From a virus, in IMG/VR virus record IMGVR_UViG_3300037961_006399, positions 1-29,862 of that record: 29,862 nt of DNA; one strand, 5' to 3'. Under the pieces are notes generated by a model. That model worked only from the letters and a program-made list of their open reading frames with translations, made no database searches and was not told the origin of the DNA. Made by a program: the position numbers and the translations under genes. Each line of letters opens with the position of its first letter. Position 1 is the first letter of the stretch. Below are positions 8,773 through 29,291 of this stretch, piece after piece.

Positions 8773-8773
8773 T

Positions 8774-9406: not shown

Positions 9407-10290
9407 TTTTCAATCCTCTTTGCAATTGTATTTAAACACCCATCCCAAGTAAGATGTTTCTCATAAACTTTTTGACCATAGTCAATCATTTCCTGGTGCT
9501 TTCCAGATTCTAGTATAGCATCTACTCTTTCTGGTATACTATCTATTTCATTTTCATTTACGAGTAAACACATTTTTTCCCACTCAATTTGATCAGTAAA
9601 TGGTAACCAAAATTCGTCCGAAATATAAATGGGAATGCACTGCATTTGTATTGCTTCATACATTCTATATGAAGCTGGTCCAAATCCTCTAGGTGCCAAA
9701 GCAAACACAGAATTGGAGAGTATCTCTCTAAATTTACGGGTTTTAAAATCACCAGATTGATATGAATTCATAAAAAATTCATATCCCTCAAGATTATTGA
9801 GAGAGTCGAACATTTTTTGTCTTATTGGATGAGTTACAATTCCAGCAAATCCAACTTTATTCGTCCTAGTTTCTTTTCCAACAGTAGGATGTGGTTCACA
9901 TAGTAATGGGATAGGTTCATATACAGAATTATTTCCAATCGGAGAATTAAACTTTCCAGATGAACCGAAAATAATTGAATTGTCAATTGGAACTAACGTT
10001 CCCCCATCATATTGAACAATAGTAAAAAACTTTTCGTTTGGATATTTTTGTGTTAAATTGGAACAAAAATCAATCAAAGGTTTTGAATTCAATCCATACT
10101 CTCCACCTGGATTGATGTGCCAAGATGTCCATTGAATTGGAATATAAATGTAGTCAGAGTCTAAATCTTTTTTTGTGGTGAAAAAACTAAAAGCCCTTTC
10201 CTCAATCATTGGATTTGATCCTTGATGTGGAGGATATTGGACTGGCATTTTAGGAAGAAATTCCCTAGGTACATCAACAATGCGTATCAT
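9400..10290 (-). CDS. exostosin-like (GT47-type) glycosyltransferase
   Basis: 296 residues. The C-terminal donor-binding half has SVFALAPRGFGPASYRMYEA (194-213) and CIPIYISDEFWLPF (218-231), matching the exostosin/GT47 pattern in which an Arg and a Glu hold the nucleotide sugar. The N-terminal half carries YIYIPIQWTSWHINPGG. No membrane anchor. It starts by ATGA overlap with the GT2 gene at 10287-10290. Family members add xylose, galactose, glucuronate or GlcNAc; donor unknown here. Confidence 0.8.
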   Translation of the reverse strand: MIRIVDVPREFLPKMPVQYPPHQGSNPMIEERAFSFFTTKKDLDSDYIYIPIQWTSWHINPGGEYGLNSKPLIDFCSNLTQKYPNEKFFTIVQYDGGTLVPIDNSIIFGSSGKFNSPIGNNSVYEPIPLLCEPHPTVGKETRTNKVGFAGIVTHPIRQKMFDSLNNLEGYEFFMNSYQSGDFKTRKFREILSNSVFALAPRGFGPASYRMYEAIQMQCIPIYISDEFWLPFTDQIEWEKMCLLVNENEIDSIPERVDAILESGKHQEMIDYGQKVYEKHLTWDGCLNTIAKRIEKC

Positions 10291-11036
10291 AATTGTTTAA
10301 TTGCAGTTTCATAATAGTTTACAGATGCTTGTGAATTGTTTCCACAAGAGTGCCAATTGCTATCAGATCTAAGTCTATGATTGTGTCTAAGTCCTTCAAC
10401 TATTTTAACCTTTCCACCACTCTTTAACCAATAGTAAAAAACAGCAGCAGTGTCAGCATGTAGTAAAGGTGTTTCAACATTTTCATAAGGTTCTTTCAAA
10501 ACCTCAGTATATCTATCTTTATTAACAATATAGTTGCCAGAATTTACTAACCAACCAAACCATTCAATATTACCCAGGATACATTTCTTACTTTCCTCAA
10601 TACCAATTAAATCATATCCAAAATTATAATCAGATACAACTTCAAAGTCATTAGCACCATCATGCTTACAACAGAGATGTTGTGGAGAATAAAAAATATT
10701 AGGATCGCTATCTGGTATTCCTCTCATGAGTTGATAACTTTCTTCAAATGGATAATTATCACTATCTAATAGATATACCCATTCATTGGAACAGTTTTTT
10801 ACTGTCTGGTACTTATTTCTAAATGCGCCTACATTTTTAGTATTGGAAAATAACTTTATCTTTTTAGAGTTAATATTTTCTATTTTACTTTTAAATGTTT
10901 GAAAATGTTCTGGAGATGAACAATCATCATTAACAACAATTTCATCAATAAAATCATCATCTAAAGCATATTTTATACAATCATCAAAATATTGAGATGT
11001 ATTGTATGTTGGAAGAGCAAGACTAATTTTTTTCAT
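10287..11036 (-). CDS. GT2-family glycosyltransferase
   Basis: 249 residues with an N-terminal GT2 GT-A core: SLALPTYNTSQYFDDCI (5-21), EIVVNDDCS (32-40) and the DxD region VYLLDSDNYPF (87-97). The C-terminal half (GLRHNHRLRSDSNWHS) is of the kind that binds acceptors. No membrane segment, so it is not a processive synthase. It starts at TAATG shared with the RmlD-like gene at 11036 and ends by ATGA overlap with the GT47-like gene. Confidence 0.85.
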   Translation of the reverse strand: MKKISLALPTYNTSQYFDDCIKYALDDDFIDEIVVNDDCSSPEHFQTFKSKIENINSKKIKLFSNTKNVGAFRNKYQTVKNCSNEWVYLLDSDNYPFEESYQLMRGIPDSDPNIFYSPQHLCCKHDGANDFEVVSDYNFGYDLIGIEESKKCILGNIEWFGWLVNSGNYIVNKDRYTEVLKEPYENVETPLLHADTAAVFYYWLKSGGKVKIVEGLRHNHRLRSDSNWHSCGNNSQASVNYYETAIKQL

Positions 11037-11812
11037 TATGAAATATTAAAAGAGTACATTTCCAATAGTTGTTGTTCAACTGTCAAATCCACAGGACGCC
11101 CATAAATTGTTTTCAAACTTCTATCACAATAATCAACCATCACCGGATTTATTTTGTTGTTCAAATTATATATCTGATTAATAAATGAGGTCAATTGATA
11201 TTTACTAACAGTATCCTTAGAGTGATAGTGTCTTACACCATCCCAATATGATTTTGAATTAATAATTGAAACTATTTCTTTAGTCAATTGTAAACATGTC
11301 AATCCATTCCAAAAATGGTTCAAGTATCCGTTTATAGTTGTATTCTTATTGGTTTTTACCCATTCAACCAAAGATTTTTTATTCAGTAGTTCTTCACCTA
11401 TAATTGATGTGCGAATTACAGTTACATTATTTGGCTCTCCCAAAGATTTACTTTTGCCATAATCATCAAGACAATCATGAACACTAAGTTCTGTATATGA
11501 TCCTTCTTTACCACTAAAAACACAATCTGTAGTAACATGAATTACATGACACTTGAGAGAAGACAGAAAATGTGGAAACAATGAATTAACTCTAATCAAT
11601 TCATTTGCAGTATATGATCTTTGCTTAATAACTCCTGCAGCGTTCACAATAACATCATCATCATTAAAACAATACTTATCGGTGATGTTGTTAAAGTCTT
11701 CTAATAAATCAACATCTTTTCTTGTAATAGGAACTACATCAAGAAAAGAACTCATATACTTTGTAAGGTATCTTCCCAACATTCCATTGGCACCAAAAAT
11801 GTAAACTTTCAT
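11036..11812 (-). CDS. RmlD-like nucleotide-sugar 4-ketoreductase
   Basis: 258-residue SDR of the RmlD substrate-binding family: FGANGMLGRYL (6-16), IVNAAGVIKQ (about 55-64), HVTTDCVFSG (about 92-101) and the YGKSKSLGE catalytic block. RmlD reduces dTDP-4-keto-rhamnose; relatives such as WbvR reduce the UDP-linked 4-keto amino sugar made by a WbjB-type enzyme. The WbjB-like gene lies three genes upstream and no RmlABC is visible, so the UDP-amino-sugar route is preferred. It lacks the C-terminal cupin of WbjC/CapF, judging from its length. Confidence 0.75.
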   Translation of the reverse strand: MKVYIFGANGMLGRYLTKYMSSFLDVVPITRKDVDLLEDFNNITDKYCFNDDDVIVNAAGVIKQRSYTANELIRVNSLFPHFLSSLKCHVIHVTTDCVFSGKEGSYTELSVHDCLDDYGKSKSLGEPNNVTVIRTSIIGEELLNKKSLVEWVKTNKNTTINGYLNHFWNGLTCLQLTKEIVSIINSKSYWDGVRHYHSKDTVSKYQLTSFINQIYNLNNKINPVMVDYCDRSLKTIYGRPVDLTVEQQLLEMYSFNIS

Positions 11813-11814
11813 AA

Positions 11815-12489
11815 TTATTTGTAAGTAGATTTAATTAAGTAGAGAATAGTATCGTCCTTACATCTCACAAAAGCATTTGGGTATGGATCTTGTAAGGATC
11901 TAATTTTATCAAAAAGTTCTTTTGATGTATAGTTAGAAAAGTCTTCTAACTTTATTTCACTCATATATTTTTTTCTTCTTTTAAAATAAGAGGATTTAGA
12001 ATTGTCTTGGTCAATAAGATTTAAAGATAAATTTTTCAAATCTTTTTCGATAATTTTTGTACACCCCTCTACACCAATACTTATAATTTTTTCAAAAACT
12101 TCATACAAATCACAATCTTCAATACCAAATTGTCTTTGAAATACTATTGGTCCAGTATCAATTCCAGTATCCATCAAAAATAAAGTAACGCCACTAATAG
12201 TTTCCCCATTTATAATCTGATGCTGTATTGGACTTCCGCCCCTATACTTTGGCAATAGAGATGGATGCAAACATATACATCTATTAGAATTTACTATAGA
12301 TTCGTCTACTATACTACTCCAACCTATAAAAAAAATTAAATCATATTTGTAGTTTGATATTAAATATGAAAATTTGTTATCAGTATTGCAAACGGAAAAT
12401 ACAACATCTTCAGTTTTAAACTTCTCTTGAATTTGAACACATATTGAATCAGACCATTCTCTATATGAGCATAGTAAAATGCTTTTCAT
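11815..12489 (-). CDS. formyltransferase-fold protein with altered catalytic Asn
   Basis: 224 residues of the formyl_trans_N type used by Fmt, ArnA and sugar N-formyltransferases: LHPSLLPKYRGGSPIQ (74-89) and GVTLFLMDTGIDTGPIV (100-116). His75 and the Asp in GIDTG (111) are present. The catalytic Asn two residues before the His is Cys73 (codon TGT) where NxH is expected. The C-terminal part may recognise the sugar. It follows the PIG-L deacetylase with TAATG coupling at 12487-12491, fitting removal of acetyl followed by addition of formyl from N10-formyl-THF. Activity is uncertain because of the Asn change. Confidence 0.75.
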   Translation of the reverse strand: MKSILLCSYREWSDSICVQIQEKFKTEDVVFSVCNTDNKFSYLISNYKYDLIFFIGWSSIVDESIVNSNRCICLHPSLLPKYRGGSPIQHQIINGETISGVTLFLMDTGIDTGPIVFQRQFGIEDCDLYEVFEKIISIGVEGCTKIIEKDLKNLSLNLIDQDNSKSSYFKRRKKYMSEIKLEDFSNYTSKELFDKIRSLQDPYPNAFVRCKDDTILYLIKSTYK

Positions 12490-13112
12490 TAATCAACCCA
12501 TCTAATAATTTGAAACGATTCTGCACTCGGCATGTTGGATTGAAATCCTCTCAAATAAGCCATCTGTCTTAGAGTATCAGGACCTCTATGTCCCCTGACC
12601 TGTGATTTTAGGAAGTTATATGAAAAAACTTTATCGTCAATATCTAATGGAGAGAAGTAATTTGGTTTAAAAGAACTATTGAGATCATGAGTACAATCCC
12701 ACAAAAAACTGTGAACTTCTTCATAAACTAAAACTTTTTTAACGAAAAAGTTGATGTCATGATGACGAAGAGCAACTAATGCTGCATCATAAACTGCAAT
12801 GTGATCTTGATTATAGGATGGATAAGGAATAAAAACTTTATCGGGTTTAACCTTATTAATTTGCTCTTCAAAAATAGGTATCAAATCTTGCATTACATAG
12901 TTGTTTACCTTGTTCTCAAGATATACATCGTAACTAAATCCACAGTGATCGGAAAGATTTTTTAATTCTTGCAATCTTTCCTCTCTACTCACCACATGAA
13001 ATACATCAACACCACACTCAACAACGTGAGCATCTTCATTCAAAAAACTGAAGCATCCCAATAACTCATCATCAACATGAGGAGATATTACTAGTGTTTT
13101 TTTAGTGGTCAT
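12489..13112 (-). CDS. PIG-L/LmbE-family de-N-acetylase
   Basis: 207 residues with the zinc-binding PHVDDELLG motif (11-19; H12, D14, D15) and YNQDHIAVYDAALVAL (about 110-125), the second metal/His motif of PIG-L deacetylases. The family removes the acetyl group from GlcNAc-type sugars, here probably a nucleotide- or glycan-linked N-acetyl sugar. It lies 3 nt after the WbjB-like gene and directly before the formyltransferase-like gene. The P-H-x-D-D-E core has Val where Pro is most common. Confidence 0.85.
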   Translation of the reverse strand: MTTKKTLVISPHVDDELLGCFSFLNEDAHVVECGVDVFHVVSREERLQELKNLSDHCGFSYDVYLENKVNNYVMQDLIPIFEEQINKVKPDKVFIPYPSYNQDHIAVYDAALVALRHHDINFFVKKVLVYEEVHSFLWDCTHDLNSSFKPNYFSPLDIDDKVFSYNFLKSQVRGHRGPDTLRQMAYLRGFQSNMPSAESFQIIRWVD

Positions 13113-13115
13113 AAT

Positions 13116-14045
13116 TTAAGGTTTAAAAAAGTTTTTTTCTTTCAAGATTGAATATAGCATGTTTTTGTCAATAACACAATCTTCTGAAGAGTATTGATTA
13201 TTTGGAAAACTTACTTCATCGTAAATATTCGTTTGATGCATCAGATAATGATCATTAAATTTTTTCATTCTCGCAACTTCATCTTGAGATGCCATTATCT
13301 CATGTATTTTTTCACAACTCCTTGGTTGTGAAACATCATACTTCAATCCAAACTCTTCTTTAAAGATTTCAAAAAGATCAGAGACTTTCATACTATGTAA
13401 AATGGGAATTACATTATATCCATCAGTTTTAAGTCCAATCTCAATTAAATTAATAGCATCATCAACATTGATAAAAAATCTAGTCATCTCTTCACCATAC
13501 AAGGACAAACTAAACCCCTCCTTTATACTATGCCACATCAAAGGAATGATGCTACCAGTACTATTCAAAACATTCCCATAAACTGCCGTGCTCAGTCTAA
13601 CATCACTTTTACTAGAATTTGAAATAAACGATTCACCTGCAACATATTTCATTGCACCATATATTGTAGTTGCAGATCTGCTTTTATCACTTGAAATAAA
13701 ACATGATGACTCAAACTCATTTTCCTCAGAGCACCTCCTACTATTAAAGGCACCATTAACAATCACCTGATTTGCTTCTTCATAGTTATCATGACAAGCT
13801 TGAATCTGTTTAAATGAAGCAGTAAAAATTCCAACATCATGATTTTTACTGGCACGTTTCATTAAATCATAATTCCTAACATCACCACAAATACATTCCA
13901 AATTTGGATACTTTTTCTTTAGATGATATTGCTTTGATTCATCTCTAGAATAAACCGTGATATGATTTTTATCATAAAATCTCTTAATTATTGACCGTCC
14001 AAGAAAACCAGTTCCTCCTGTCAAGAATATTTTTTTGTTTTCCAT
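13116..14045 (-). CDS. PseB/WbjB-type UDP-GlcNAc 4,6-dehydratase (with or without 5-epimerase)
   Basis: 309-residue SDR of the polysaccharide biosynthesis CapD/FlaA1 group: TGGTGFLGRSI (9-19), VYSRDESKQ (31-39), CGDVRNYDL, ASFKQIQACHDN, SSDKSRSATTIYGAMK (about 118-133, with the Tyr-x3-Lys pair) and RFFINVDDA. In PseB and WbjB the same positions read TDKA and YGATK. Those enzymes make UDP-4-keto-6-deoxy-HexNAc; the RmlD-like reductase downstream could finish a UDP-L-RhaNAc-type sugar. Sub-type is inferred from context. Confidence 0.75.
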   Translation of the reverse strand: MENKKIFLTGGTGFLGRSIIKRFYDKNHITVYSRDESKQYHLKKKYPNLECICGDVRNYDLMKRASKNHDVGIFTASFKQIQACHDNYEEANQVIVNGAFNSRRCSEENEFESSCFISSDKSRSATTIYGAMKYVAGESFISNSSKSDVRLSTAVYGNVLNSTGSIIPLMWHSIKEGFSLSLYGEEMTRFFINVDDAINLIEIGLKTDGYNVIPILHSMKVSDLFEIFKEEFGLKYDVSQPRSCEKIHEIMASQDEVARMKKFNDHYLMHQTNIYDEVSFPNNQYSSEDCVIDKNMLYSILKEKNFFKP

Positions 14046-14057
14046 AATTAAAATTAA

Positions 14058-14810
14058 TCAATATCCTTTAATAATTGGACGATTTCCAAACATAGAAGAC
14101 GCAGAAGGTCCAGACCCTGGCCTATCTGTTTGGTTATACATATATCCTAGCACAGAATCATCCCATTTTTTCCAAGAGTTTCTAATATCATCTCTTCTTT
14201 CACCAATCATCGAGTCCCATTTATCATACTTTGGTTCTGGGCAATTTTTAATAACACGATCTCCAAGATGTGAATATTTTCTAGACCATCTTGGTTCAGA
14301 TTCATCACATCCAGGAGGGCCATTCAATGGAGATTTTGGATACACTTTGCAATGCATATCATAATTACCCTCTAAACTTTCATATATGCACAAATCATTA
14401 TACTTGTGTCTATATACCCAATCTCTATCTTCCCATCCACCCAAATAGAACTCTTCATCAAACCAACCAATAGTTCTAATAAGTTCTTTGGAAAATGCCA
14501 TGAATGCACTATTAAAAATATACACTGTTGCATACCCATTTTCAAGAAGATTGAGTGTCTTTTCAACTTCTTCAACAGTAGGAAATAATCTATCATTCAT
14601 TAAAACAATCCATTCAGTTGGAGAAGTTGCAACAGCATGATTTACCAACTCAGAGAATGATGGATACATACCAGGATGTCTATCAATTCTATTATTCCAA
14701 TGAACTTTATATTTTTCTTCTAGAGGTTTTAATAAACCCATCTGATTGTCAACGATAGATCTATCATATCCACAATGCAAAGATATTGTGAATTCATCAA
14801 TCTTAATCAT
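14058..14810 (-). CDS. GT2-like glycosyltransferase
   Basis: 250 residues. EWIVLMNDRLFP (about 66-77) takes the place of the GT-A DxD strand and WFDEEFYLGGWEDRDWVYR (about 115-133) is the conserved acceptor/base block (F-x-GWEDxD) of GT2- and galactosyltransferase-like enzymes. The C-terminus is Gly/Ser-rich with no membrane helix. It is preceded by a 38-nt spacer, the longest gap inside the operon. Confidence 0.75.
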   Translation of the reverse strand: MIKIDEFTISLHCGYDRSIVDNQMGLLKPLEEKYKVHWNNRIDRHPGMYPSFSELVNHAVATSPTEWIVLMNDRLFPTVEEVEKTLNLLENGYATVYIFNSAFMAFSKELIRTIGWFDEEFYLGGWEDRDWVYRHKYNDLCIYESLEGNYDMHCKVYPKSPLNGPPGCDESEPRWSRKYSHLGDRVIKNCPEPKYDKWDSMIGERRDDIRNSWKKWDDSVLGYMYNQTDRPGSGPSASSMFGNRPIIKGY

Positions 14811-14848
14811 AAATTTTTCTCAAAACAATTTTTTTACTGAATTATATA

Positions 14849-15586
14849 TCATACATAAATGTATCTATCTTCATCATCAACAATTACATCTATATCATTT
14901 CCATCTTTACGATGTTGCCAATATTTTTTAGAAGTTCTTGGGTAATATATTCTAGTTGCATCAGACAACCAAGCAGCCCACCACGAATATGACGATTGAG
15001 ATATTGCTATGTGTTTATAAGATGCAATATCAACAAAGTCTTGCCATTCACTATTAGATACAACTTTACAATTAAACACATCTTTTATTTCAGATATAAA
15101 AGAGTGATTTGGTTCATCGGTATAGATGACTGGAACTTTTTTAGAATCCTTTATTACATCGATATAATATTCAACTGGAAGATTATTATTGTCTCTATAA
15201 TATTCCCCCAACCTAATATGAACTGCAATTAAGTCATCATCATATAGAGATCCATTTTTTTCAAAAGAGTATATTTTTTTCACATACTCTTTATAATTTT
15301 TTATATTTTCATAGACTTGATAATATCCATGAATACATATCATCCCTTTATGTTTAGATAATTTATCATAATCCATTTGCCAAATATCAGAACAAATGAT
15401 TGGATTATCTTGAATGATTATATTATTATTTTCACCCAAATTAGATTCATAAAAATTTCCTGGTTTTTTTGCATTTAAAAAATACTTTGTCTTTTTAGAT
15501 AAAATCCTACAACATGCGTATTGGAAAAGGTGATTTCCAAATCCAGAATTTATATCAGACTGTCCTCGGTATTGCAAATTAATCAT
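14849..15586 (-). CDS. GT11 alpha-1,2-fucosyltransferase-like (copy 1 of tandem pair)
   Basis: 245 residues with GFGNHLFQYA (15-24, family G-x-GNQxFQYA), VHIRLGEY (122-129, the GDP-fucose-binding HxRxGDY motif) and SQSSYSWWAAWLSDA (about 195-209, the family SxFSWWxAWL). GT11 enzymes add L-fucose in alpha-1,2 linkage to galactose. Copy 2 lies 8 nt upstream; both end in the same ten residues (VDDEDRYIYV) and share exact DNA repeats, so they arose by duplication. Asp to Glu in the HxRxGDY motif (GEY) is shared by both copies. Confidence 0.85.
   Translation of the reverse strand: MINLQYRGQSDINSGFGNHLFQYACCRILSKKTKYFLNAKKPGNFYESNLGENNNIIIQDNPIICSDIWQMDYDKLSKHKGMICIHGYYQVYENIKNYKEYVKKIYSFEKNGSLYDDDLIAVHIRLGEYYRDNNNLPVEYYIDVIKDSKKVPVIYTDEPNHSFISEIKDVFNCKVVSNSEWQDFVDIASYKHIAISQSSYSWWAAWLSDATRIYYPRTSKKYWQHRKDGNDIDVIVDDEDRYIYV
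14853..14875. repeat. 23-nt repeat at the 3' ends of the tandem GT11 genes, copy 1
   Basis: Identical to 15599-15621. It encodes the shared C-terminus of the two GT11 paralogues. Confidence 0.9.
14955..14991. repeat. 37-nt exact repeat in GT11 genes, copy 1
   Basis: Identical to 15695-15731. It encodes the conserved SYSWWAAWLSDAT region of both genes. The near-perfect DNA identity over the active-site block, against diverged flanks, fits recent duplication or gene conversion. Confidence 0.9.
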
Positions 15587-15594
15587 AATATCTG

Positions 15595-16347
15595 TTAAAC
15601 ATAAATGTATCTATCTTCATCGTCAACGGTAAAGTCTATATCATTACCATTGTGACTCCAATAATTTTTATATGAAAGGGGATAATAAATTGTCGTTGCA
15701 TCAGACAACCAAGCAGCCCACCACGAATATGTAGATTGAGATATAATAATATGTTTATGAGATGCCATTTTTACAAAATCATCCCACTGTGTAGGAGATT
15801 TTGATTCTACCCAAGTTTTATCAGAAGAAGAAATGTCACAATCAACTAAAGATTCTATTTCTTGAACATATGGATGTGTAGGTTGATCTGTGTAAATAAT
15901 TGCTTTCTTTTTAGACTTTCTAATACAATCTACATAATATTCTTTTGGCAATTGATTGTTATGCCTACAATACTCACCAAGTCTAATGTGAACTGCTATT
16001 AAATTATCATCATAAAGATTTTTATCTTTTTCAAAAGAATAAAGATTTTTTACATATTCTTTATGGTATTTTATATTAGAGTATCTTTGAAAGTATCCAT
16101 AAAAGTGTATTAATCCCTTATGCTTTGAAATACTATCATAATCAATACTCCACACATCACCACCAATCATCATTTCATTATTACTATATCTAATATCATT
16201 ATTCTCTGGAGGATTAAGATCTATAAATTTACCTTCAATAGGAGGTACTCCATCCAAAAAATATTTTGTTTTATTAGATAAAATCCTCGCTACAGCATAT
16301 TGCATCATCTGATTGGCAAGGTATCCACCATAACTAAGTTTTATCAT
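15595..16347 (-). CDS. GT11 alpha-1,2-fucosyltransferase-like (copy 2 of tandem pair)
   Basis: 250 residues. GGYLANQMMQYAVARIL (7-23) is a weakened G-x-GNQxFQYA loop, VHIRLGEY is at 119-126 and SQSTYSWWAAWLSDA at about 205-219. Compared with copy 1 the middle (a segment around TWVESKSPTQWDD) is about ten residues longer and the N-terminal loop differs. Acceptor specificity may therefore differ while the donor site is kept. TAATG coupling with the GT34-like gene at 16347. Confidence 0.85.
   Translation of the reverse strand: MIKLSYGGYLANQMMQYAVARILSNKTKYFLDGVPPIEGKFIDLNPPENNDIRYSNNEMMIGGDVWSIDYDSISKHKGLIHFYGYFQRYSNIKYHKEYVKNLYSFEKDKNLYDDNLIAVHIRLGEYCRHNNQLPKEYYVDCIRKSKKKAIIYTDQPTHPYVQEIESLVDCDISSSDKTWVESKSPTQWDDFVKMASHKHIIISQSTYSWWAAWLSDATTIYYPLSYKNYWSHNGNDIDFTVDDEDRYIYV
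15599..15621. repeat. 23-nt repeat at the 3' ends of the tandem GT11 genes, copy 2
   Basis: Identical to 14853-14875, at the 3' end of the second GT11 gene. Confidence 0.9.
15695..15731. repeat. 37-nt exact repeat in GT11 genes, copy 2
   Basis: Identical to 14955-14991, 740 nt away, in the same reading frame of the paralogue. Confidence 0.9.
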
Positions 16348-17093
16348 TAATAATCATTCCTCCAGGGTTGACCGCCAGCAAAGTGGCGAATGATGACATC
16401 CTTTCGTTCTACCTGATTAATATTAAACGTACATCCAGATTCACCAGGCATCTCAGTCACGTTCCAGCATGTAGGTAACACCTCAACGTGTTTATACAAC
16501 TCTTCTAAAGAGTATACCGTCCATTCATCTTTATCAGAATGCCAACCATAATGTGCAAGATTGTAAAATGGAATATTAGAATGTCTTTTTATACCAGCCA
16601 AAGAATACCAGGATGCTTGTTCTCTGAATATACTCCAAAAACTATCTCTGTGACCAAAGTATTCATGAAGAGTAATCTTATCCTTTAAATTCTGATACCT
16701 ATTTTCATCAAGAAGATGATCAAGCATATTTTTAGACCATTCATTAACTTTGATGGAATAATTTCCCATACAATGAGTATTTCCAGAATCAATACAATAG
16801 GTAAATGATTTATTAGAAGGATAATCAACATTCAGTTTATGAATACACATATCAGCATCAATATGTGTTAGGGTATCTCCTTCTTTCAAAGTTCCATCAT
16901 TTATAAGATCTCTAACAATAGTAAACTTCCACCAAGTTGGATGATCTCTAAACGGTTTATAAGGACCAAGATATTCCAAATATTCATAACCATGAATATC
17001 ACAATACTCCCTATTCCTAGGAGAAAAATTAGTTTTAAAAAATTCTTGCCTCTGATCTGGGTAATTTGCAATTACCATTAAGTATTTTTTCAT
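16347..17093 (-). CDS. GT34-like GT-A glycosyltransferase
   Basis: 248 residues. The pattern N-R-x-Y-C-x-x-HGYEYLEY (about 27-40), HPTWWKFTIVRDLI (about 51-64) and THIDADMCIHK (about 76-86, DxD) resembles GT34 (GMA12/MNN10) galactosyl/xylosyltransferases. The C-terminal IIRHFAGGQPWR would carry the last metal ligand His. No signal anchor, unlike eukaryotic GT34. It sits between two pairs of GT11 genes, so it may supply the hexose that is fucosylated. Family call is tentative. Confidence 0.65.
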   Translation of the reverse strand: MKKYLMVIANYPDQRQEFFKTNFSPRNREYCDIHGYEYLEYLGPYKPFRDHPTWWKFTIVRDLINDGTLKEGDTLTHIDADMCIHKLNVDYPSNKSFTYCIDSGNTHCMGNYSIKVNEWSKNMLDHLLDENRYQNLKDKITLHEYFGHRDSFWSIFREQASWYSLAGIKRHSNIPFYNLAHYGWHSDKDEWTVYSLEELYKHVEVLPTCWNVTEMPGESGCTFNINQVERKDVIIRHFAGGQPWRNDY

Positions 17094-17899
17094 TTTAAAA
17101 AAGTAAAATTACCAAACTTTAATCCATCTACATTTTTATGTATATTGTCAGAACCAACCCAATTACTTGGCGCTATAACTTTTTTACTTTTAGATAACCA
17201 TGCACCCCACCAAGAAAATGATGAATTAGCGATAATATGATATGTACAAAGTGATTGCAAACAAAGATCTACTCCACTATTGTTATCTTCAACAAAAATA
17301 AATCTATCTTGGTCAAACATTTTTTGATTTTTACACCAATCAATATCGTCAGAAAAAATCATGACGGTAAGTTCTTGTGGCAAAAGATCTAAAGATTTTT
17401 TATAAAAATCAATACTAGCTAAAGGATGATGATTTTGAAGTTGCACATAATCTGTTCTGCGAATATGAAGAGAAATTACTTCAGAATTGTCAAAATTTTC
17501 TCTAAACGCATCTTCAGTTGGTTCTATAATTTCATCTACAAAGGTAAATGCATTTCTTATATCTTTCTCAATGTGTTTAAAATATTTTTCTGTTTGAAAA
17601 TACCCCATCAAACTAATATTATCTGGACACCTATCCCACAACAGTTCATCTAAATTGTAACTAGTTCTTTCCATTACTTTTGGAAAATTTGTTATGTTTC
17701 TGGGAGCATCAGGTATGTTAAAGCATTCAAACATAGTAATGTCAGAATTTTTAACCTTATCGTCTTTTGTACCGATTACCTCTTCTGGGGGAAGACAATA
17801 ATCATAACCATGCTTTTGTGCCAATCCTCTTAAAGATGCATACTGGAACATTTGGTTACCAAGTCTCCCCAGATTTCCTAAATCGTCATTTGCAATCAT
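17090..17899 (-). CDS. GT11 alpha-1,2-fucosyltransferase
   Basis: 269 residues, the most canonical GT11 here: GRLGNQMFQYASLRGLA (11-27), HIRRTDYV (145-152) and NSSFSWWGAWLSKSKKV (about 218-234), with length close to bacterial FutB/WbsJ-type enzymes. It uses GDP-L-fucose, which gmd plus fcl can make. It ends by ATGA overlap with the GT34-like gene. Confidence 0.9.
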   Translation of the reverse strand: MIANDDLGNLGRLGNQMFQYASLRGLAQKHGYDYCLPPEEVIGTKDDKVKNSDITMFECFNIPDAPRNITNFPKVMERTSYNLDELLWDRCPDNISLMGYFQTEKYFKHIEKDIRNAFTFVDEIIEPTEDAFRENFDNSEVISLHIRRTDYVQLQNHHPLASIDFYKKSLDLLPQELTVMIFSDDIDWCKNQKMFDQDRFIFVEDNNSGVDLCLQSLCTYHIIANSSFSWWGAWLSKSKKVIAPSNWVGSDNIHKNVDGLKFGNFTFLK

Positions 17900-17906
17900 C
17901 TGTAAA

Positions 17907-18698
17907 TTAAATTATTTTCCAATGAGAAAGGTACAAGTCATCAGTATTGTGATTTATACAATCTCCAGCAAACCATTTCTTTGGAGCTACAACATTTTGA
18001 CTATTTGCCAACCAAGCACCCCACCAACTAAAAGTACTATTACAAATTACATGATACTTACATTTACTCATAATATAAAGATCATAATATGCATTATCAG
18101 TTTCTGAAATAATAAATCTATCATCAGAAAATATGTCTTGTTGTTTTGCCCACTCAATATCATCAGTAAAAACAAGAACTGGAATATCTGTAGGAAACTC
18201 ACCCAGACCGTCAATATAGTATTGATTATCCTGAACGGGATGATTTGGATTTTTTAGAAAATCATTTCTCCTAATATGAATAGCAATCGAATCTTTATAT
18301 TGATCAACTATATCAGAACAATCGTCTTGTATTTCTTTTTTAAATACAAAGTCATTGGTTCTCAATTCATCCTCTATATTTTTAAAATATTTTTCAGATT
18401 GAAAAAATCCAACAAGATTGTAATCTCCATTTGATAGAGCCTCTACTAATTCACTATCATAATGAAAAAATCTTTCATTGACATTTGTATATGATGATAT
18501 TCCACGATAACATTTTATATCAAAAGCTTCATCGATATTACTAAAAAGATTTTGATAATAATGCTTACCAAAAATATTACTTGGAGGAATACAATATTCA
18601 GTATTATATTTTTTTGCAAATGCCTTAACAACAGAATACTGAAACATCTGGTTCCCCAGATGTCCATTATTTCCCAGATGATTGATAGAAAAACTCAT
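17907..18698 (-). CDS. GT11 alpha-1,2-fucosyltransferase
   Basis: 263 residues with NGHLGNQMFQYSVVKAFA (11-28), HIRRNDFL (141-148; Tyr of the usual DY is Phe) and NSTFSWWGAWLANSQNVV (about 215-232). It is clearly related to the GT11 at 17090-17899 and more distant from the tandem pair at 14849-16347. Starts by ATGA overlap with the ColD-like gene. Likely a cytosolic transferase with GDP-fucose as donor. Confidence 0.9.
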   Translation of the reverse strand: MSFSINHLGNNGHLGNQMFQYSVVKAFAKKYNTEYCIPPSNIFGKHYYQNLFSNIDEAFDIKCYRGISSYTNVNERFFHYDSELVEALSNGDYNLVGFFQSEKYFKNIEDELRTNDFVFKKEIQDDCSDIVDQYKDSIAIHIRRNDFLKNPNHPVQDNQYYIDGLGEFPTDIPVLVFTDDIEWAKQQDIFSDDRFIISETDNAYYDLYIMSKCKYHVICNSTFSWWGAWLANSQNVVAPKKWFAGDCINHNTDDLYLSHWKII

Positions 18699-19858
18699 AG
18701 TAAAGAAAGAATATCACTAAGTAAATTTATTTCTTGTTCTCCAATGAAATGATTATTTCCTAGGTAAATTCCATTGTAGTGGACAAGATCTACATTAAGT
18801 TCTTTTTTACTAGTAGTTATAGAATAATCTTTTAGGAATGGTTGTTTAAGCAAATTTCCACCAATAATAGGACGGTGTTCAATACCATTTTGATCAAAGA
18901 CTTTTCTCAACCTATGAGCATATCTAACGTCCTTACAAATAATTGGGAAGCAAAAATTACTCACTCCCTCGTGATACTTAGGTACATAGAATAAGTTTGG
19001 ATACTTTTCCATCAAAGAAATAAACATTGAATAATTTTTATTTCTTTTCTCAATATATGAATCAAGTCTGTTTAATTGAGATAGTCCAAGAACTGCACTA
19101 AGTTCATCATTTCTAAAATTATATCCATCAGTAACAAATAAAAATTGTTTAGAAATATCTGGATACATCTCTTTATATCGATCAAACATTTCAGATTCTC
19201 TTGCAAGACCATGAGAACGTTTGATTCTCATCAAATCATAAAGTTCATAATTGTTGGTAGAAACTATTCCACCTTCAATTGTAGACATATGATGTCCAAA
19301 ATAAAAACTAAAGGTTGCTCCAATACTATCAGATCCTACTTTAGATCCATCGGCATTTTTACATCCATGAGACTCGCATACATCATCAATAATTAAAGCA
19401 TTTGGAAATAGTTCAGAATACTTACTGTTATTTGCAGGAAATCCTATCAAATGTGTTGTAAAAATTAATTTAATATCTGGATGTTCTTTTGCAATGTACT
19501 GCAAATCTTCTTCGCAGAAACTAAAATTATCTAAGTTAATATCACAAAAGATTGGTGTAAATCCTAACTGAATAACTGGACCAATATTTGTTACCCAAGT
19601 ATCTGCCGGTACTAATACCTTGTCGCCATCTTTTAAACCATAATATTCTTTTACGGATGCAAGTAAAAGATAATTCGCGGTACTTCCAGAGGAAACAAAT
19701 AGTGAGTGTTTACAACCCAACCACTCTGACCATTCTTTTTCAAAACTTCTAACTTTCCTACCATTAGTAAAACGATCAGAAGTTAATACAAACTTTGCTA
19801 GATTATATCTGTCACCTAGAGTGACATTGTTTTTCATTAACGGCCATTTATAGTTCAT
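18695..19858 (-). CDS. ColD-like GDP-4-keto-6-deoxymannose 3-dehydratase (DegT/DnrJ fold)
   Basis: 387 residues from the ATG at 19858, chosen for its AGGTGG Shine-Dalgarno sequence 7 nt upstream; a longer frame to 19891 would overlap fcl more. PLP-fold signatures are SSGSTANYLLLAS (56-68), DDVCESHG (158-165, the Asp that binds the pyridine) and ATFSFYFGHHMSTIEGG (181-197). His189/190 stand where aminotransferases have the Schiff-base Lys. That exchange defines ColD and E1/RfbH dehydratases (ColD active-site His188, about 388 aa, from memory). It lies directly after gmd and fcl, whose intermediate is the ColD substrate. A GDP-perosamine synthase is unlikely without the Lys. Confidence 0.75.
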   Translation of the reverse strand: MNYKWPLMKNNVTLGDRYNLAKFVLTSDRFTNGRKVRSFEKEWSEWLGCKHSLFVSSGSTANYLLLASVKEYYGLKDGDKVLVPADTWVTNIGPVIQLGFTPIFCDINLDNFSFCEEDLQYIAKEHPDIKLIFTTHLIGFPANNSKYSELFPNALIIDDVCESHGCKNADGSKVGSDSIGATFSFYFGHHMSTIEGGIVSTNNYELYDLMRIKRSHGLARESEMFDRYKEMYPDISKQFLFVTDGYNFRNDELSAVLGLSQLNRLDSYIEKRNKNYSMFISLMEKYPNLFYVPKYHEGVSNFCFPIICKDVRYAHRLRKVFDQNGIEHRPIIGGNLLKQPFLKDYSITTSKKELNVDLVHYNGIYLGNNHFIGEQEINLLSDILSLL

Positions 19859-20762
19859 TTTTATACCACCTGTATGTTTTTTCAATTCCATCTTTTAATT
19901 CAATTTTAGGTTCCCAACCAAGTGCTTTGATCTTATCTACATTTAGGAGTTTTCTTGGAGTCCCATTTGGTTTACTAGTATCCCATTCAATTTCTCCAGC
20001 AAATCCAACAACATCTGCAACTGTTTCAGCAAGTTCTTTAATAGTTACGTCGGTTCCAGTTCCAACATTAATAATATCAGAACTATCATAATCACGCATA
20101 CAAACAAAACATGCTTCAGCAAGATCATCGGCATGAAGAAACTCTCTTCGTGCTGAACCATCACCCCAAAGAGTAACTTTATTGTTTTCCTCATAAAACC
20201 TACGAATCATGGCAGGAAGAACATGAGAACTTTCTAAATCAAAGTTATCATTAGGTCCATACAGATTAGTAGGCATAACAGAAATTGCATTGAATCCATA
20301 TTGCTTACGGTATGCTTGGCACATTTTAATACCAGCAATCTTTGCAATAGCATATGAATCATTAGTTGGTTCCAGAGGACCTGTCATCAAATACTCTTCC
20401 TTGATTGGTTGCTCACACATCTTTGGATAGATGCAAGAAGATCCAAGGAACAAAAGTTTCTTGACACCATACTTACGTGCAGCATGAATGATATTTGACT
20501 GAATCATCAAATTATCATAGATGAAATGTCCAGGATAATCCCTATTTGCAACAATACCACCAACCTTTGCAGCAGCAAGATAAACATATTCAGGCTCATT
20601 GATTCTGAAAAAATCTTCTACATCTTGTTGATTACGTAAATCCCATCGATAAGATGGCGATGAAATAATATTAGTATACCCCTTCATATGAAGCATACGG
20701 ACGATTGCTGATCCTACAAGTCCTGTATTGCCAGCAACATATACTTTACTATTACTGTCCAT
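19848..20762 (-). CDS. fcl: GDP-L-fucose synthase (WcaG/Fcl)
   Basis: 304 residues from the ATG at 20762; a frame extension to 20780 lies further inside gmd. [16 protein letters not shown] (7-22), AAAKVGGI (63-70), GSSCIYP (107-113), SYAIAK (Y137/K141) and [17 protein letters not shown] match NADPH-dependent GDP-4-keto-6-deoxymannose 3,5-epimerase/4-reductase. It makes GDP-L-fucose from the gmd product. Because a ColD-like enzyme follows, it or a relaxed activity could also reduce the 3-deoxy intermediate, as ColC does. The start overlaps gmd by 11 nt. Confidence 0.92.
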
Positions 20763-21753
20763 AGATACACATATCCTCAACTAGTTCCTTAAATGATGTT
20801 TTGGGTTCCCAACCCAATTTTTCTTTTGCCTTGGTAGGATCTCCAAGTAAAGTCTCTACTTCTGCGGGACGGAAATACTTAGAATCAACTTTAATAATCG
20901 GTCTCTTCGTATTCCAATCATATCCAACTTCATCCAATCCTTCACCCATCCATTCAATCTGCATACCAAAGATTGGTGCAGCAGCTTCAACAAAATCACG
21001 AACAGAGTATTGTTCACCAGTTGCAATCACATAATCATCAGGTTCATCCTGTTGAAGCATCAACCACATTGCCTCAACAAAATCTTTTGCATGTCCCCAA
21101 TCCCTCTTTGCATTGAGATTGCCAAGGTACAAGCAGTCTTGAAGACCTGCAGAAATTCTAGACAATCCTCTTGTGATCTTACGAGTTACAAAAGTTTCAC
21201 CACGTCTTGGCGACTCATGATTGAATAGAATCCCAGAACTACAGTGCATTCCATAAGACTCTCTATAGTTTTTTATAATCCAATATCCATAAACTTTAGC
21301 ACATCCATAAGGAGATCTGGGATAGAAAGGTGTAGTTTCTGACTGTGGTATTTGCTGAACTTTACCATACATCTCAGAAGTAGATGCTTGATATATCCTA
21401 ACTTTACCCTCCATACCCAACAAACGGACTGCCTCAAGCACTCTCAGGGTTCCTAGAGCATCTGTCTGTCCTGTGTACTCAGGCATCTCAAACGATACCT
21501 TTACATGACTCTGAGCGCCCAGATTATAAATCTCATCTGGTTGAACTTGCTGAATAACTCTGACAAGATTAGTAGAATCTGTTAAATCTCCATAATGAAG
21601 ATTAAGTTTATCGTAAATATGATCAATACGATGTGTGTTAATCAGAGAAGCGCGACGGACAATACCATGAACTTCATATCCTTTTTCGAGGAGAAGTTCT
21701 GCTAAGTATGATCCATCTTGCCCTGTGATACCAGTAATTAGAGCAACTTTCAT
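20752..21753 (-). CDS. gmd: GDP-mannose 4,6-dehydratase
   Basis: 333 residues, full length for [19 protein letters not shown] (7-22), [15 protein letters not shown] (77-91), STSEMYG (124-130), SPYGCAK (Y149/K153) and [16 protein letters not shown]. It converts GDP-D-mannose to GDP-4-keto-6-deoxy-D-mannose in the cytosol. First gene of the 25-gene leftward operon, about 20 nt behind the -10 box at 21774. Phosphomannomutase and GDP-mannose pyrophosphorylase are not in the window, so GDP-mannose must come from the host or from elsewhere in the genome. Confidence 0.96.
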
Positions 21754-21809: not shown

Positions 21810-21833
21810 ATGTAGGTCTTGCAGGCTCGCCAC

Positions 21834-21926
21834 TTATTCTTTAACAGGAAATAAGAAACCTGGCGGGAGCATAAAACCCCATCCGCACCACTTGCTCTTA
21901 GGAAAAGCAAGAAACCTAAGGGTCAT
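21834..21926 (-). CDS. 30-aa hypothetical peptide
   Basis: A short ORF starting MTLRFLAFPKSKWCGWGFML and ending FPVKE, rich in aromatic residues and Pro, with a GGTGG Shine-Dalgarno-like sequence about 6 nt upstream. It lies between the 71-aa ORF and the terminator at 21781-21809. The frame is open and the position is right for a last gene in a small operon, but nothing else supports it and I know no function. Confidence 0.4.
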   Translation of the reverse strand: MTLRFLAFPKSKWCGWGFMLPPGFLFPVKE

Positions 21927-25636: not shown

Positions 25637-25707
25637 AGCGAATTACGGGGATCGAACCCGTGACACCAACTTGGAAGGATGGGATGTTACCGCTACACCA
25701 AATTCGC
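25637..25707 (-). tRNA. tRNA-Gly (TCC)
   Basis: Cloverleaf: acceptor GCGAATT/AATTCGC, D arm around GTGTAGCGGTAACAT, anticodon loop CTTCCAA (anticodon TCC), and T arm ACGGG-TTCGATC-CCCGT. CCA is not encoded. Reads GGA/GGG codons. Confidence 0.95.
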
Positions 25708-25744
25708 AGTGATGAAAGTATAAGACAACCTTTACTGATTGTCA

Positions 25745-25816
25745 AGCCTCCGACAAGATTTGAACTTGCGACCTTTGCTTTACAAAAGCACTGCACTACC
25801 ACTGTGCTACAGAGGC
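25745..25816 (-). tRNA. tRNA-Thr (TGT)
   Basis: Acceptor GCCTCTG/CGGAGGC (one wobble), D arm GCACAGTGGTAGTGC, anticodon loop TTTGTAA (TGT), T arm GCAAG-TTCAAAT-CTTGT. CCA not encoded. The outer anticodon pair is weak. Confidence 0.95.
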
Positions 25817-25818
25817 AA

Positions 25819-25890
25819 CTCCCCTTCCTGGGATCGAACCAGGGACCAAACGATTAACAGTCGTTCGCTCTACCGCTGAGCTAAAGAGGA
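25819..25890 (-). tRNA. tRNA-Asn (GTT)
   Basis: Acceptor TCCTCTT/AAGGGGA (one wobble), D arm GCTCAGCGGTAGAGC, anticodon loop CTGTTAA (GTT), T arm CCTGG-TTCGATC-CCAGG. Two bases from tRNA-Thr. Its 5' end lies inside the 3' end of the 54-aa ORF. Confidence 0.95.
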
Positions 25891-26045
25891 TTGTTTTCTT
25901 CTCTCTTGAGTTTGAAGTATAGTTTATAATACTTCTTTCTCAGTTGATCGAAGATTTTATTGTCTTCCTCAAAACCAAGTTTCTTAGTGTGCGTATAGCA
26001 CCCTTCTAATTCAGATAACAGAAGTAAGATGTCTACTGGTTTCAT
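25881..26045 (-). CDS. 54-aa hypothetical protein between tRNAs
   Basis: 54 residues from the ATG at 26045 (MKPVDILLLLSELEGCYTHT...). The frame is open upstream to a GTG at 26066, but that would overlap tRNA-Arg. It is helical and basic at the C-terminus (RKKYYKLYFKLKREENNPL). Its last codons and stop (CCT CTT TAG) lie in the first 10 nt of tRNA-Asn, so tRNA processing would cut its mRNA. Function unknown; the ORF may be real as it is compact and free of rare features. Confidence 0.5.
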   Translation of the reverse strand: MKPVDILLLLSELEGCYTHTKKLGFEEDNKIFDQLRKKYYKLYFKLKREENNPL

Positions 26046-26059
26046 AGTAAAAAAGACAA

Positions 26060-26132
26060 CAGGCACGGCTGGGGTCGAACCAGCAATCTACCGCTTAGAA
26101 GGCGGGGGCATTATCCATTATGCTACGTGCCC
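26060..26132 (-). tRNA. tRNA-Arg (TCT)
   Basis: Acceptor GGGCACG/CGTGCCT (first pair G-T), D arm GCATAATGGATAATGC, anticodon loop CTTCTAA (TCT), T arm GCTGG-TTCGACC-CCAGC. Reads AGA/AGG, codons common in AT-rich phage genes and rarer in many hosts. Confidence 0.95.
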
Positions 26133-26137
26133 ATAAA

Positions 26138-27250: not shown

Positions 27251-27909
27251 TTTCTTTACTATTTGCCTCACCAGTCAATGCTAATACTGTTGGTGGGGTA
27301 TCAGCAACAGCATCGCCGGTCGCAAACAGTTCCGGCAGCGTGACCAATCAGGCCATTCAGGTTTTGCAAGGTCCATATATTACCAACACTTATGGGTCAG
27401 GAATCCAGTGTCAAGGTCCTACTCGCAATTTTACTCCCTATGTAACGGGAAGTGTATCTGCGGCAAAACCATATGAACCATACTACATGGATCCAGTATA
27501 CGATGTTACCGATAATTTCGGAGCATTCGATGAAGACAATAATCCAATTGGAGATGGAATTTTAGATAATCCCGGCGATATTGTCTTCCATAAAAAAACA
27601 AGAACTGGACAGAAAGATAACTATAGTTTAGGTGTTGGTTTCTCTATGACATGGAGTACACCAACAGATAAGAAGATGCAGGAGTTGTGTAAAGAAGCAG
27701 CATCTGCAAATATTGAAATGATGAAACAACAAACTGCCAATAAAAGATTAGATTTTGAGATCGCTCGTCTCAAGAATTGTGGCGAGTTGATGTTAAAGGG
27801 AATTCAATTTCATCCTAAAAGTAAATATTATTCCGTATGTGCAGATGTCCTAGTGAACAATCCTCCAGGACATACTCATCCACACATTCATAAGATTCCT
27901 AATGACTAA
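27085..27909 (+). CDS. exported protein with long out-of-frame 5' overlap
   Basis: 274 residues from the ATG at 27085, which has AAGGAG 10 nt upstream, but the signal-peptide-like helix (YKYLLAVVSLLFASPVNA) starts only near residue 50. No ATG, GTG or TTG lies just before that helix; ATC at 27214 is the nearest candidate for a non-canonical start. The mature part has ASPVANSSGSVTNQAIQVLQ, a region rich in Tyr/Pro (AKPYEPYYMDPVYD), a helical segment with Cys (KKMQELCKEAASANIEMMKQ) and a His-rich end (GHTHPHIHKIPND). Real start or frameshift from the preceding gene is unresolved. Function unknown; probably exported or virion-linked. Confidence 0.6.
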   Translation: MGWIEQQTKLHTDNTWRSVPVYGDLSRSRIEQPHNHPKRDTHRIGHRNYKYLLAVVSLLFASPVNANTVGGVSATASPVANSSGSVTNQAIQVLQGPYITNTYGSGIQCQGPTRNFTPYVTGSVSAAKPYEPYYMDPVYDVTDNFGAFDEDNNPIGDGILDNPGDIVFHKKTRTGQKDNYSLGVGFSMTWSTPTDKKMQELCKEAASANIEMMKQQTANKRLDFEIARLKNCGELMLKGIQFHPKSKYYSVCADVLVNNPPGHTHPHIHKIPND

Positions 27910-28448
27910 AAAACACTTCTAGTTCTTGAACCAACTGTTGATCTTGGAGATCTAGGTGAACCAGTTGTTACCTGAACTGAATCAGGCATTCTACCACTTT
28001 GTTGAGCACTACTTGTCACAGCTGACCGCTCAGAACTAGTTAAATCAGACCAACGAGCGTCCTGACCATTTTTGGTAATATTTGGCATTCTCTTACCTGT
28101 TGCACGAGAACCTGCACCTGGTGATGCTACTTCCCTAGGTTTTCTTGCAGTTGGTTTTGTTACTTCTCTGGGTTTTCTTGTTTCAGATTCGGGTTCAGGT
28201 TTTTTCTTCTCACTTTTTTTACTGCCACCAATTTTAAACTTACCAGAAACATTTACATTACCACTCACTGTGGTTTTCATTCCACCCTTCTTTGAAGATG
28301 CTGATTGTGCTTGTCCTGAATTAGCAAGTGCTCTATCAACAGCACCTCTTATCGATGCCGTTGTTGCTTGTGCAGGGGCAGCACCACGAGTAACTCTAGC
28401 AAAACCACTAATTTCTGCTTCAGCAAAAAACTCTTGAAATGTCTTCAT
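27906..28448 (-). CDS. putative capsid-targeted internal protein (T4 CTS-like N-terminus)
   Basis: 180 residues. The first 11 residues, MKTFQEFFAEA, closely match the T4 internal protein capsid-targeting sequence MKTYQEFIAEA, which brings IPI-IPIII into the prohead and is cut by gp21 after the Glu. The rest is basic and low-complexity (KSEKKKPEPESETRKPREV with a second KPREV repeat, SPRSPRSTVGSRTRS) with no membrane helix, as expected of a DNA-associated internal or ejected protein. A late promoter motif lies 25 nt upstream. Its stop interlocks with that of the convergent gene (27906-27909). Confidence 0.7.
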   Translation of the reverse strand: MKTFQEFFAEAEISGFARVTRGAAPAQATTASIRGAVDRALANSGQAQSASSKKGGMKTTVSGNVNVSGKFKIGGSKKSEKKKPEPESETRKPREVTKPTARKPREVASPGAGSRATGKRMPNITKNGQDARWSDLTSSERSAVTSSAQQSGRMPDSVQVTTGSPRSPRSTVGSRTRSVF

Positions 28449-28472: not shown

Positions 28473-28480
28473 TATTTATT
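28473..28480 (-). promoter_or_regulatory. late promoter-like motif (AATAAATA)
   Basis: Minus strand, one mismatch from TATAAATA, 25 nt before the start of the CTS-like gene and overlapping the stop of the 271-aa gene. Confidence 0.5.
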
Positions 28481-29291
28481 TCTTCTTCCGTCTCGGGAAC
28501 ACAGAACGCAACTCCTTAACAGCATGATTCATCTGACGCTGTTCTGCTCTACGCTCCCCGTCAGAAAGCACTGGAGGTTTCTTACCTCTAATAGCAGCAA
28601 TCTTCTTCATAACCTTCTTTACAGCAGGTTTGACTGCCTTTAGTAAAATATCAGCAAGAGGTTTGGCAAGTAGTGCTGAAGTGGTTGCAATTACGGCAAC
28701 ACCACCAACCTGCATCACCTGACCACCACTAGGAAGTCCCGCTACTATTTGTGTAGGTAGTGGGACTTTTTCTGTAATCTGGATACAAGTTTTATCGATA
28801 AGTTCATAACCAGTAACTATCTCCCTAAAACCATTAACATATGTTCCTACAGGTTCCTGTGCTTGCTGAACTTTAGTAGGACATTCAATTTTTACTGTTT
28901 TTGGTGAAGGTGGTTTAGGTGTTTCAATCTTTGGTGATTCTGGAATATCTGGTTCTGGAGTCTCTGTTTTTGGAACAACTGCAGGAGTTGTTATAGTCAT
29001 ATTCTCAGGTTCATATTGAATGGGATCAAAGCTTGGCATCCCACCATCACAATAAACCACTATACCCTGCTGATCATCCTCACCTATAGTTTTAGATTTA
29101 TTATTTGATTCATGAGCCTCTACACATCCAGGAATGTCAACTACAGGAAGTCCGATGTTAACCACAACTGGTGGAGAAAGTGGCAATGAAGTAGATGTAT
29201 CATTCAACCTATAAGTAGGAATATCAATCTCCCTAATTGTATCGATGCGAATATTGATATCCTTACTAGTAATAATAGGAATATCAGGCAT
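28476..29291 (-). CDS. 271-aa Pro-rich/basic putative virion protein
   Basis: 271 residues in three parts. Residues 1-100 are beta-prone (starts MPDIPIITSKDINIRID; Cys at 56 and 81). A Pro-rich repeat region follows (about 102-132, with TPEPDIPESPKIETPKPPSP). The C-terminal part has a hydrophobic helix (about 193-215, VMQVGGVAVIATTSALLAKP) and a strongly basic tail (LKAVKPAVKKVMKKIAAIRG; ends PRRKKK). It resembles late structural proteins of cyanophages but I do not know its role. It joins the 36-aa ORF upstream by TGATG at 29289-29293. Confidence 0.7.
   Translation of the reverse strand: MPDIPIITSKDINIRIDTIREIDIPTYRLNDTSTSLPLSPPVVVNIGLPVVDIPGCVEAHESNNKSKTIGEDDQQGIVVYCDGGMPSFDPIQYEPENMTITTPAVVPKTETPEPDIPESPKIETPKPPSPKTVKIECPTKVQQAQEPVGTYVNGFREIVTGYELIDKTCIQITEKVPLPTQIVAGLPSGGQVMQVGGVAVIATTSALLAKPLADILLKAVKPAVKKVMKKIAAIRGKKPPVLSDGERRAEQRQMNHAVKELRSVFPRRKKK

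Follow-up and report, generated by a model that had tools for sequence, protein, structure and literature searches.

The 29,862-base IMG/VR fragment analysed here in full (the window) comes from a T4-like cyanophage and encodes, on its minus strand, a basic protein of 180 residues that begins MKTFQEFFAEA. The question raised by this locus is whether the protein is loaded into the phage head, as the internal proteins of bacteriophage T4 are, by means of an N-terminal capsid-targeting sequence (CTS). Our reading, to which we give a probability of about 0.75, is that this T4-like cyanophage makes it as an accessory internal head protein. The features on which the argument turns are:

27906..28448, minus strand: gene for a basic 180-residue protein with a CTS-like N-terminus (ORF and translation; from the ATG at 28448 to the last base of the stop at 27906)
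28416..28448, minus strand: CTS-like tag MKTFQEFFAE/A (9/11 identical to T4 IpII/IpIII; predicted cut after Glu10)
27909..28418, minus strand: predicted mature part, 170 residues, pI 11.5, largely without confident structure (sequence and AlphaFold model)
28473..28480, minus strand: late-promoter-like AATAAATA, 24 nt 5' of the ATG and sharing bases with the stop codon of the upstream gene
28476..29291, minus strand: upstream neighbour, phrog_570, no assigned function (PHROG match; in 401 phage records)
27085..27909, plus strand: convergent downstream neighbour, phrog_848, no assigned function (PHROG match; in 434 phage records)
27892..28476, no strand: 585-bp segment present in the window and absent from its closest relative, L220 (blastn pieces that abut in L220, at 4812/4815, lie 585 bp apart in the window)

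The gene and its locus

The codon log-odds of the 180-residue ORF is 0.253 in its own frame, against 0.16–0.32 for six genes nearby in the window and −0.27 to 0.10 for the other five frames of the same ORF; the coding signal is like that of the neighbours, and is confined to its own frame. The gene makes a compact fit between the stops of the two flanking genes. A late-promoter motif had been noted ahead of it in the preliminary description, and this is borne out: the T4 late promoter consensus is TATAAATA, and AATAAATA, at 28480–28473, agrees with it in 7/8 positions, as a sequence motif only and relative to a consensus from coliphage T4. ATAAATA has one occurrence on the plus strand of the window and three on the minus strand. 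More generally, a late-promoter motif precedes 39/124 tagged genes, as against 181/994 other ORFs (Fisher, 6 × 10−4), a modest enrichment relative to a control set that contains spurious ORFs.

Records of the two flanking families nearly all bear the name Synechococcus, Prochlorococcus or cyanophage (10 are named 'Marine' and one or two 'uncultured'). On one side of the junction, the window and L220 are 97.3% identical (1,386 bp), and on the other 87.5% (1,819 bp); what L220 is missing is precisely the 585-bp segment with the query gene and the promoter-like site, and the AATAAATA motif is not present at the matching junction of L220. We surveyed this junction in 86 loci (80 from IMG/VR and six from cultured phages), 84 of which show both flanking genes; in all 84 of these readable loci, phrog_570 and phrog_848 adjoin (−4 to 23 nt) and the query gene is absent. 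The other two are without a phrog_848 match, the locus ending at or just past phrog_570. Since neither the near-identical L220 nor any of the 84 readable relatives has the segment, the query gene is a single-gene cassette, either gained recently here or lost in the relatives.

No gp21-type protease or scaffold gene was found in the 30-kb fragment; in the cultured cyanophages S-CREM2, S-SZBM1 and S-SCSM1, prohead protease and core scaffold are both annotated. Elsewhere in the window, and also on the minus strand, are four tRNA genes (Gly, Thr, Asn and Arg; 25637–26133) and some 20 kb of sugar genes (2059–21753). These encode a GDP-mannose dehydratase, a fucose-synthase-like epimerase, a DegT aminotransferase, a GHMP kinase, an SIS isomerase, a HAD-like/cytidylyltransferase fusion and several glycosyltransferases (families 11 and 25), and a wcaG RNA lies at 21819–21919, ahead of the GDP-mannose dehydratase. 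The region looks like a surface-sugar pathway, and its kinase–isomerase–phosphatase/nucleotidyltransferase order presumably recalls heptose activation.

The N-terminal tag

The T4 letters in record AF158101 confirm the N-terminal likeness on which the preliminary description was built: IpII and IpIII both begin MKTYQEFIAEA, which is identical to the query in 9/11 positions, the differences being Y4F and I8F. By comparison, the best match to the tag among the first 11 residues of 6,167 background ORFs (ATG starts, at least 50 residues; nine genomes of cultured cyanophages and 80 related loci from IMG/VR) is 6/11, and MKTFQEFFAEA is the sole CTS-like start among 271 candidate starts in the window.

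Passages on the CTS in a T4 review assign residues 4 and 7 to targeting and residues 8 and 10 to processing, and give L/I-X-E as the specificity of the prohead protease gp21 (PMC9026906). The query retains the targeting residues, as the aromatic pair F4 and F7, and also Glu at position 10; position 8 is Phe, where IpII and IpIII have Ile. Phe at this position is a minority state, seen in 2/123 tagged sequences among the matches listed; it is also found in one other tagged family (L040, L057 and L315-L317) and in ORF136 of S-CREM2, a virion-detected protein that starts MQTFSMFFSE. The gp21-type processing that had been proposed is plausible, with Glu10 present, but Phe8, set against the Ile of IpII and IpIII and the Ile or Leu of most tagged proteins, makes it less certain. 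On balance, we put the predicted cleavage after Glu10 at somewhat more likely than not.

The tag in T4 and in environmental viruses

In the T4 genome, the pattern MKT[FY].EF matches four genes, namely, ipI, ipII, ipIII and the hypothetical 61.1, and the reversed pattern, used as a control, matches none. In IMG/VR, MKTF.EF..EA is present in at least 120 stretches; a scrambled version, which has one extra fixed base, gave no matches, and MKTFQEF..EA has none in 84,980 bacterial and archaeal genomes. Among the matches listed, 113/120 of the tagged loci have ORFs in common with six cultured cyanophages. Peptidase_S77, the gp21-type protease, was found in 8/24 parent contigs, including all three over 240 kb, and was not seen in parent contigs of 146 and 117 kb, the contigs being fragments.

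Single-linkage clustering, from which 3/127 pattern matches of 40 residues or fewer were left out (the 127 include the query), places the tagged bodies from IMG/VR in 36 clusters, one of them that of the query, and there are thus at least 35 other unrelated bodies among the matches listed; the largest cluster, of 26, may be chained. Among these same matches, bodies are net positive in 35/36 clusters, compared with 42% of 629 background ORFs, Gln occupies position 5 in 36/123 clustered viral tagged sequences, and position 8, although free in the search pattern, is Ile, Leu or Val in 31/35 non-query clusters, as the gp21 L/I-X-E rule predicts. Overall, the tag behaves as a capsid-targeting sequence and tracks T4-like viruses.

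The strict tag is, nevertheless, rare and not widespread across whole cyanophage genomes: MKTF.[EQ]F occurs in 3/10 cyanophage records and MK[TS][FYL]..F..E in 2/4,674 cyanophage ORFs, and CTS-like starts were found neither in S-PM2, ACG-2014e and Sf-CH11 nor in any of 1,214 ORFs in the loci of 80 relatives.

As a separate observation, T4 gene 61.1 (AF158101, 18966–19130; a hypothetical protein of 54 residues) starts MKTFKEFIKED, in the manner of the internal proteins, and on this basis is a candidate for an unrecognised member of that group.

Tagged proteins in cyanophage virions

A looser CTS-like start motif, ^[MVL].{1,2}[FYL]..F[ILMVFN].E, was compared with published virion proteomes. Table 3 of the S-CREM2 paper lists 52 virion proteins (PMC10665884), and the motif is present at the start of 5/219 CDS of this phage, all five of which are among the 52 and none among the other 167 (Fisher, 6.5 × 10−4). 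The p value is optimistic, as the motif was loosened after inspection of the N-termini of 20 virion proteins. The five are a SAM hydrolase, an APH/ChoK-like kinase, a cytidylyltransferase, ORF13 and ORF136, and none is listed there as a structural protein.

With the motif unchanged, S-SCSM1 (290 CDS in the test; 293 features listed) yielded an NMNAT, annotated as a virion protein and detected, and SSCSM1_30, which was not, whereas S-SZBM1 yielded the cytidylyltransferase SSZBM1_140, which appears in Table 1 of its description (PMC9146016), and SSZBM1_191, which does not. An unannotated match at S-SZBM1 87820 and matches with TTG starts were not counted as tagged genes. In these two independent phages, therefore, virions were found to contain 2/4 tagged proteins (p about 0.10), and the link is only suggestive. 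Pooling all three gives 7/9 (p 2.5 × 10−4), and all seven are enzymes or have no assigned function. A stricter rule derived from T4 ([FY]4, F7, [IL]8 and E10), counted by hand from the match lists, gives 4/5 (p about 0.006); the query itself fails this rule at position 8. Occurrence of this N-terminus on numerous unrelated proteins from outside the virion had been named beforehand as an outcome that would refute packaging, and it is half realised: the unrelated bodies do exist, by the dozen, but seven of the nine with data are virion-detected, two of the four in the independent phages included.

The S-CREM2 authors regard contamination by abundant proteins as possible (PMC10665884), and those of S-SCSM1 likewise could not exclude it. 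The main text of the S-CREM2 paper appears silent on a common start, as neither 'N-termin' nor 'target' occurs in it (PMC10665884). A further NMNAT-like protein, gp184 of Syn9, starts MKKFSAFLSEA.

SSCSM1_30 (S-SCSM1 44215–44535) and SSZBM1_191 (S-SZBM1 122311–122628) are small conserved proteins with the CTS-like start M..FK.F.SESVNISGDFNGNLY; they sit among virion genes, yet are unreported in the respective virions, and are either too small for detection or a counter-example. In S-CREM2, a virion-detected 'Cas9-like' protein (7704–10313) carries its tag-like RFASFMAEA inside the annotated sequence, at residues ~18–26; either the annotation may place the start codon too far 5', or the tag may be functional at an internal position.

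The query body and other proteins behind the tag

The remainder of the query had been described as basic and of low complexity, and so it is: the 180-residue protein has a pI of 11.3 and a net charge of +19, and is rich in Ser, Ala, Gly, Arg, Thr and Lys. The AlphaFold model is of low confidence (mean pLDDT 57), with a handful of short helices, including one at residues 4–10. The body has no passing match in Pfam or PHROGs and no relative in the IMG/VR scan. The single tblastn match, in S-8S53 (E 1 × 10−4; residues 4–67) was set aside as a match of composition, as it lies away from the start of the 834-residue protein that contains it.

Other tagged proteins are more readily assigned. One is matched from end to end by phrog_2667, 'internal head protein'; L097 and P-TIM68 carry a SAM (S-adenosylmethionine) lyase domain; and others carry GNAT, DPBB, DUF5661, DUF6321 or DUF6267. 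For one tagged family (A2; 14 members aligned), an ADP-ribosyltransferase (ART)-like fold is predicted (mean pLDDT 79), the best structural match being Tpt1/KptA (Z 9.8; rmsd 2.9 over 82 residues) and the Pfam match, ART-PolyVal, falling below the cut-off; this family would be ADP-ribosyltransferase-like by fold, with no activity implied. A basic tail, R[RT]T[QK]TQPKKK, is conserved at the C-terminus of many members (L049, L067, L096, L005, L068, L052, L042, L046 and L088) and is possibly a second signal.

Proposed role and alternatives

The proposal first made, of a cyanophage internal protein packed in the capsid, is borne out in part. Targeting of the query to the head has good support by analogy: the pattern of the tag picks out the internal proteins of T4, tracks T4-like viruses and marks non-structural proteins found in cyanophage virions. 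We infer the following route. The protein would be made late in infection, and its first ten residues would act as the capsid-targeting sequence and bind the prohead core; as the shell forms around this core, the protein would become enclosed. A gp21-type prohead protease would then probably remove MKTFQEFFAE, leaving a basic, mostly disordered protein of 170 residues lying with the packaged DNA, with which it may exit the head at the next infection. Packing in the head, together with the DNA, is probable, given the resemblance of the first ten residues to the head-loading tag of T4; by analogy with T4, ejection into the host is about evenly balanced, and a role in countering host defence, which had also been raised, is doubtful.

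As to what a packed protein of this kind might do, the form that survives best, and to which we give slightly less than an even chance, is that of a DNA-condensing or core-filling protein without a function in the host. Its pI of 11.3 and low complexity would suit such a role, and tagged proteins as a rule have basic bodies; however, the protein is evidently dispensable, being missing from every readable relative. A packed effector, acting in the new host at infection, for example, against restriction or other defences as T4 IpI does, is a good deal less likely. It would accord with the enzyme-like nature of other tagged bodies (SAM lyase, ADP-ribosyltransferase-like fold, GNAT and DPBB) and with presence or absence between near-identical phages, as is typical of accessory genes, but the query body is disordered-looking and without a domain match, and the effector role of the other tagged proteins is itself presumptive.

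Improbable is a likeness of the tag that arose by chance, or through a shared preference for amphipathic N-termini, on a soluble, non-virion protein of host takeover. The CTS-like proteins unreported in virions, SSCSM1_30 and SSZBM1_191, would fit this, as would T4 61.1, which shares the start and yet is only a hypothetical protein; against it are the 9/11 identity of the query, where the background reaches 6/11, and the control searches (scrambled pattern; bacterial and archaeal genomes), which came back empty. Finally, a non-coding insertion in which the ORF is fortuitous would explain why no homologue was detected, but is very improbable given the neighbour-like, own-frame codon signal, the compact fit between two stops and the promoter-like site.

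Beyond the accessory internal head protein that we favour for this locus, the tag may serve T4-like viruses of marine and fresh waters as a general address for cargo. Dozens of unrelated payloads would be exchanged behind it, packed alongside the DNA and released into the host as infection begins, the query being among the newest; these payloads would include a SAM lyase, ADP-ribosyltransferase-like proteins, NMNAT, a kinase, an acetyltransferase and many basic orphans. We regard this reading, payloads included, as a toss-up. If it is true, the tag predicts virion cargo from sequence alone. Enzymes recur in cyanophage virion proteomes with their route into the particle unexplained, and a T4-style tag offers a simple mechanism; moreover, a common tag makes the set of proteins that marine phages deliver with their DNA directly testable, and the query gene provides a clean single-gene case of presence or absence between near-identical phages.

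Comparison with known systems

T4 internal proteins with a capsid-targeting sequence are already known, and passages of the T4 review suggest that T4-like phages bring in various proteins via the CTS (PMC9026906). In our literature search, this review alone contained both 'capsid targeting sequence' and 'cyanophage', although an earlier report may exist elsewhere. As far as the literature was searched, what is new is that a cyanophage orphan bears the tag, how broadly the tag is spread over T4-like viruses of aquatic habitats, and that enzymes detected in cyanophage virions carry it.

The query shares with T4 IpI, IpII and IpIII the N-terminal MKT[FY]xEF tag, with Glu at position 10 as in IpII and IpIII, and, as with the T4 internal proteins generally, a small basic body, unrelated and variable behind the common tag. 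It differs in that this body is unrelated to those of IpI–III, of low complexity and more basic (pI 11.3, as against 8.9–9.5), in having Phe at position 8, and in coming from a cyanophage rather than a coliphage, its packaging being predicted from sequence. As regards the restriction inhibitor IpI, in particular, the query body has no passing match to any family in PHROGs or Pfam. T4 Alt, a packed ADP-ribosyltransferase, offers a precedent for a packaged protein that gp21 processes, as outlined in the T4 review (PMC9026906), but resembles only the tagged ART-like family and not the query. The tagged virion proteins of S-CREM2 have, like the query, a CTS-like start in the T4 register, and were detected in virions by mass spectrometry, whereas their tag is looser (mostly MKxFxxFLxE) and several of them are large enzymes.
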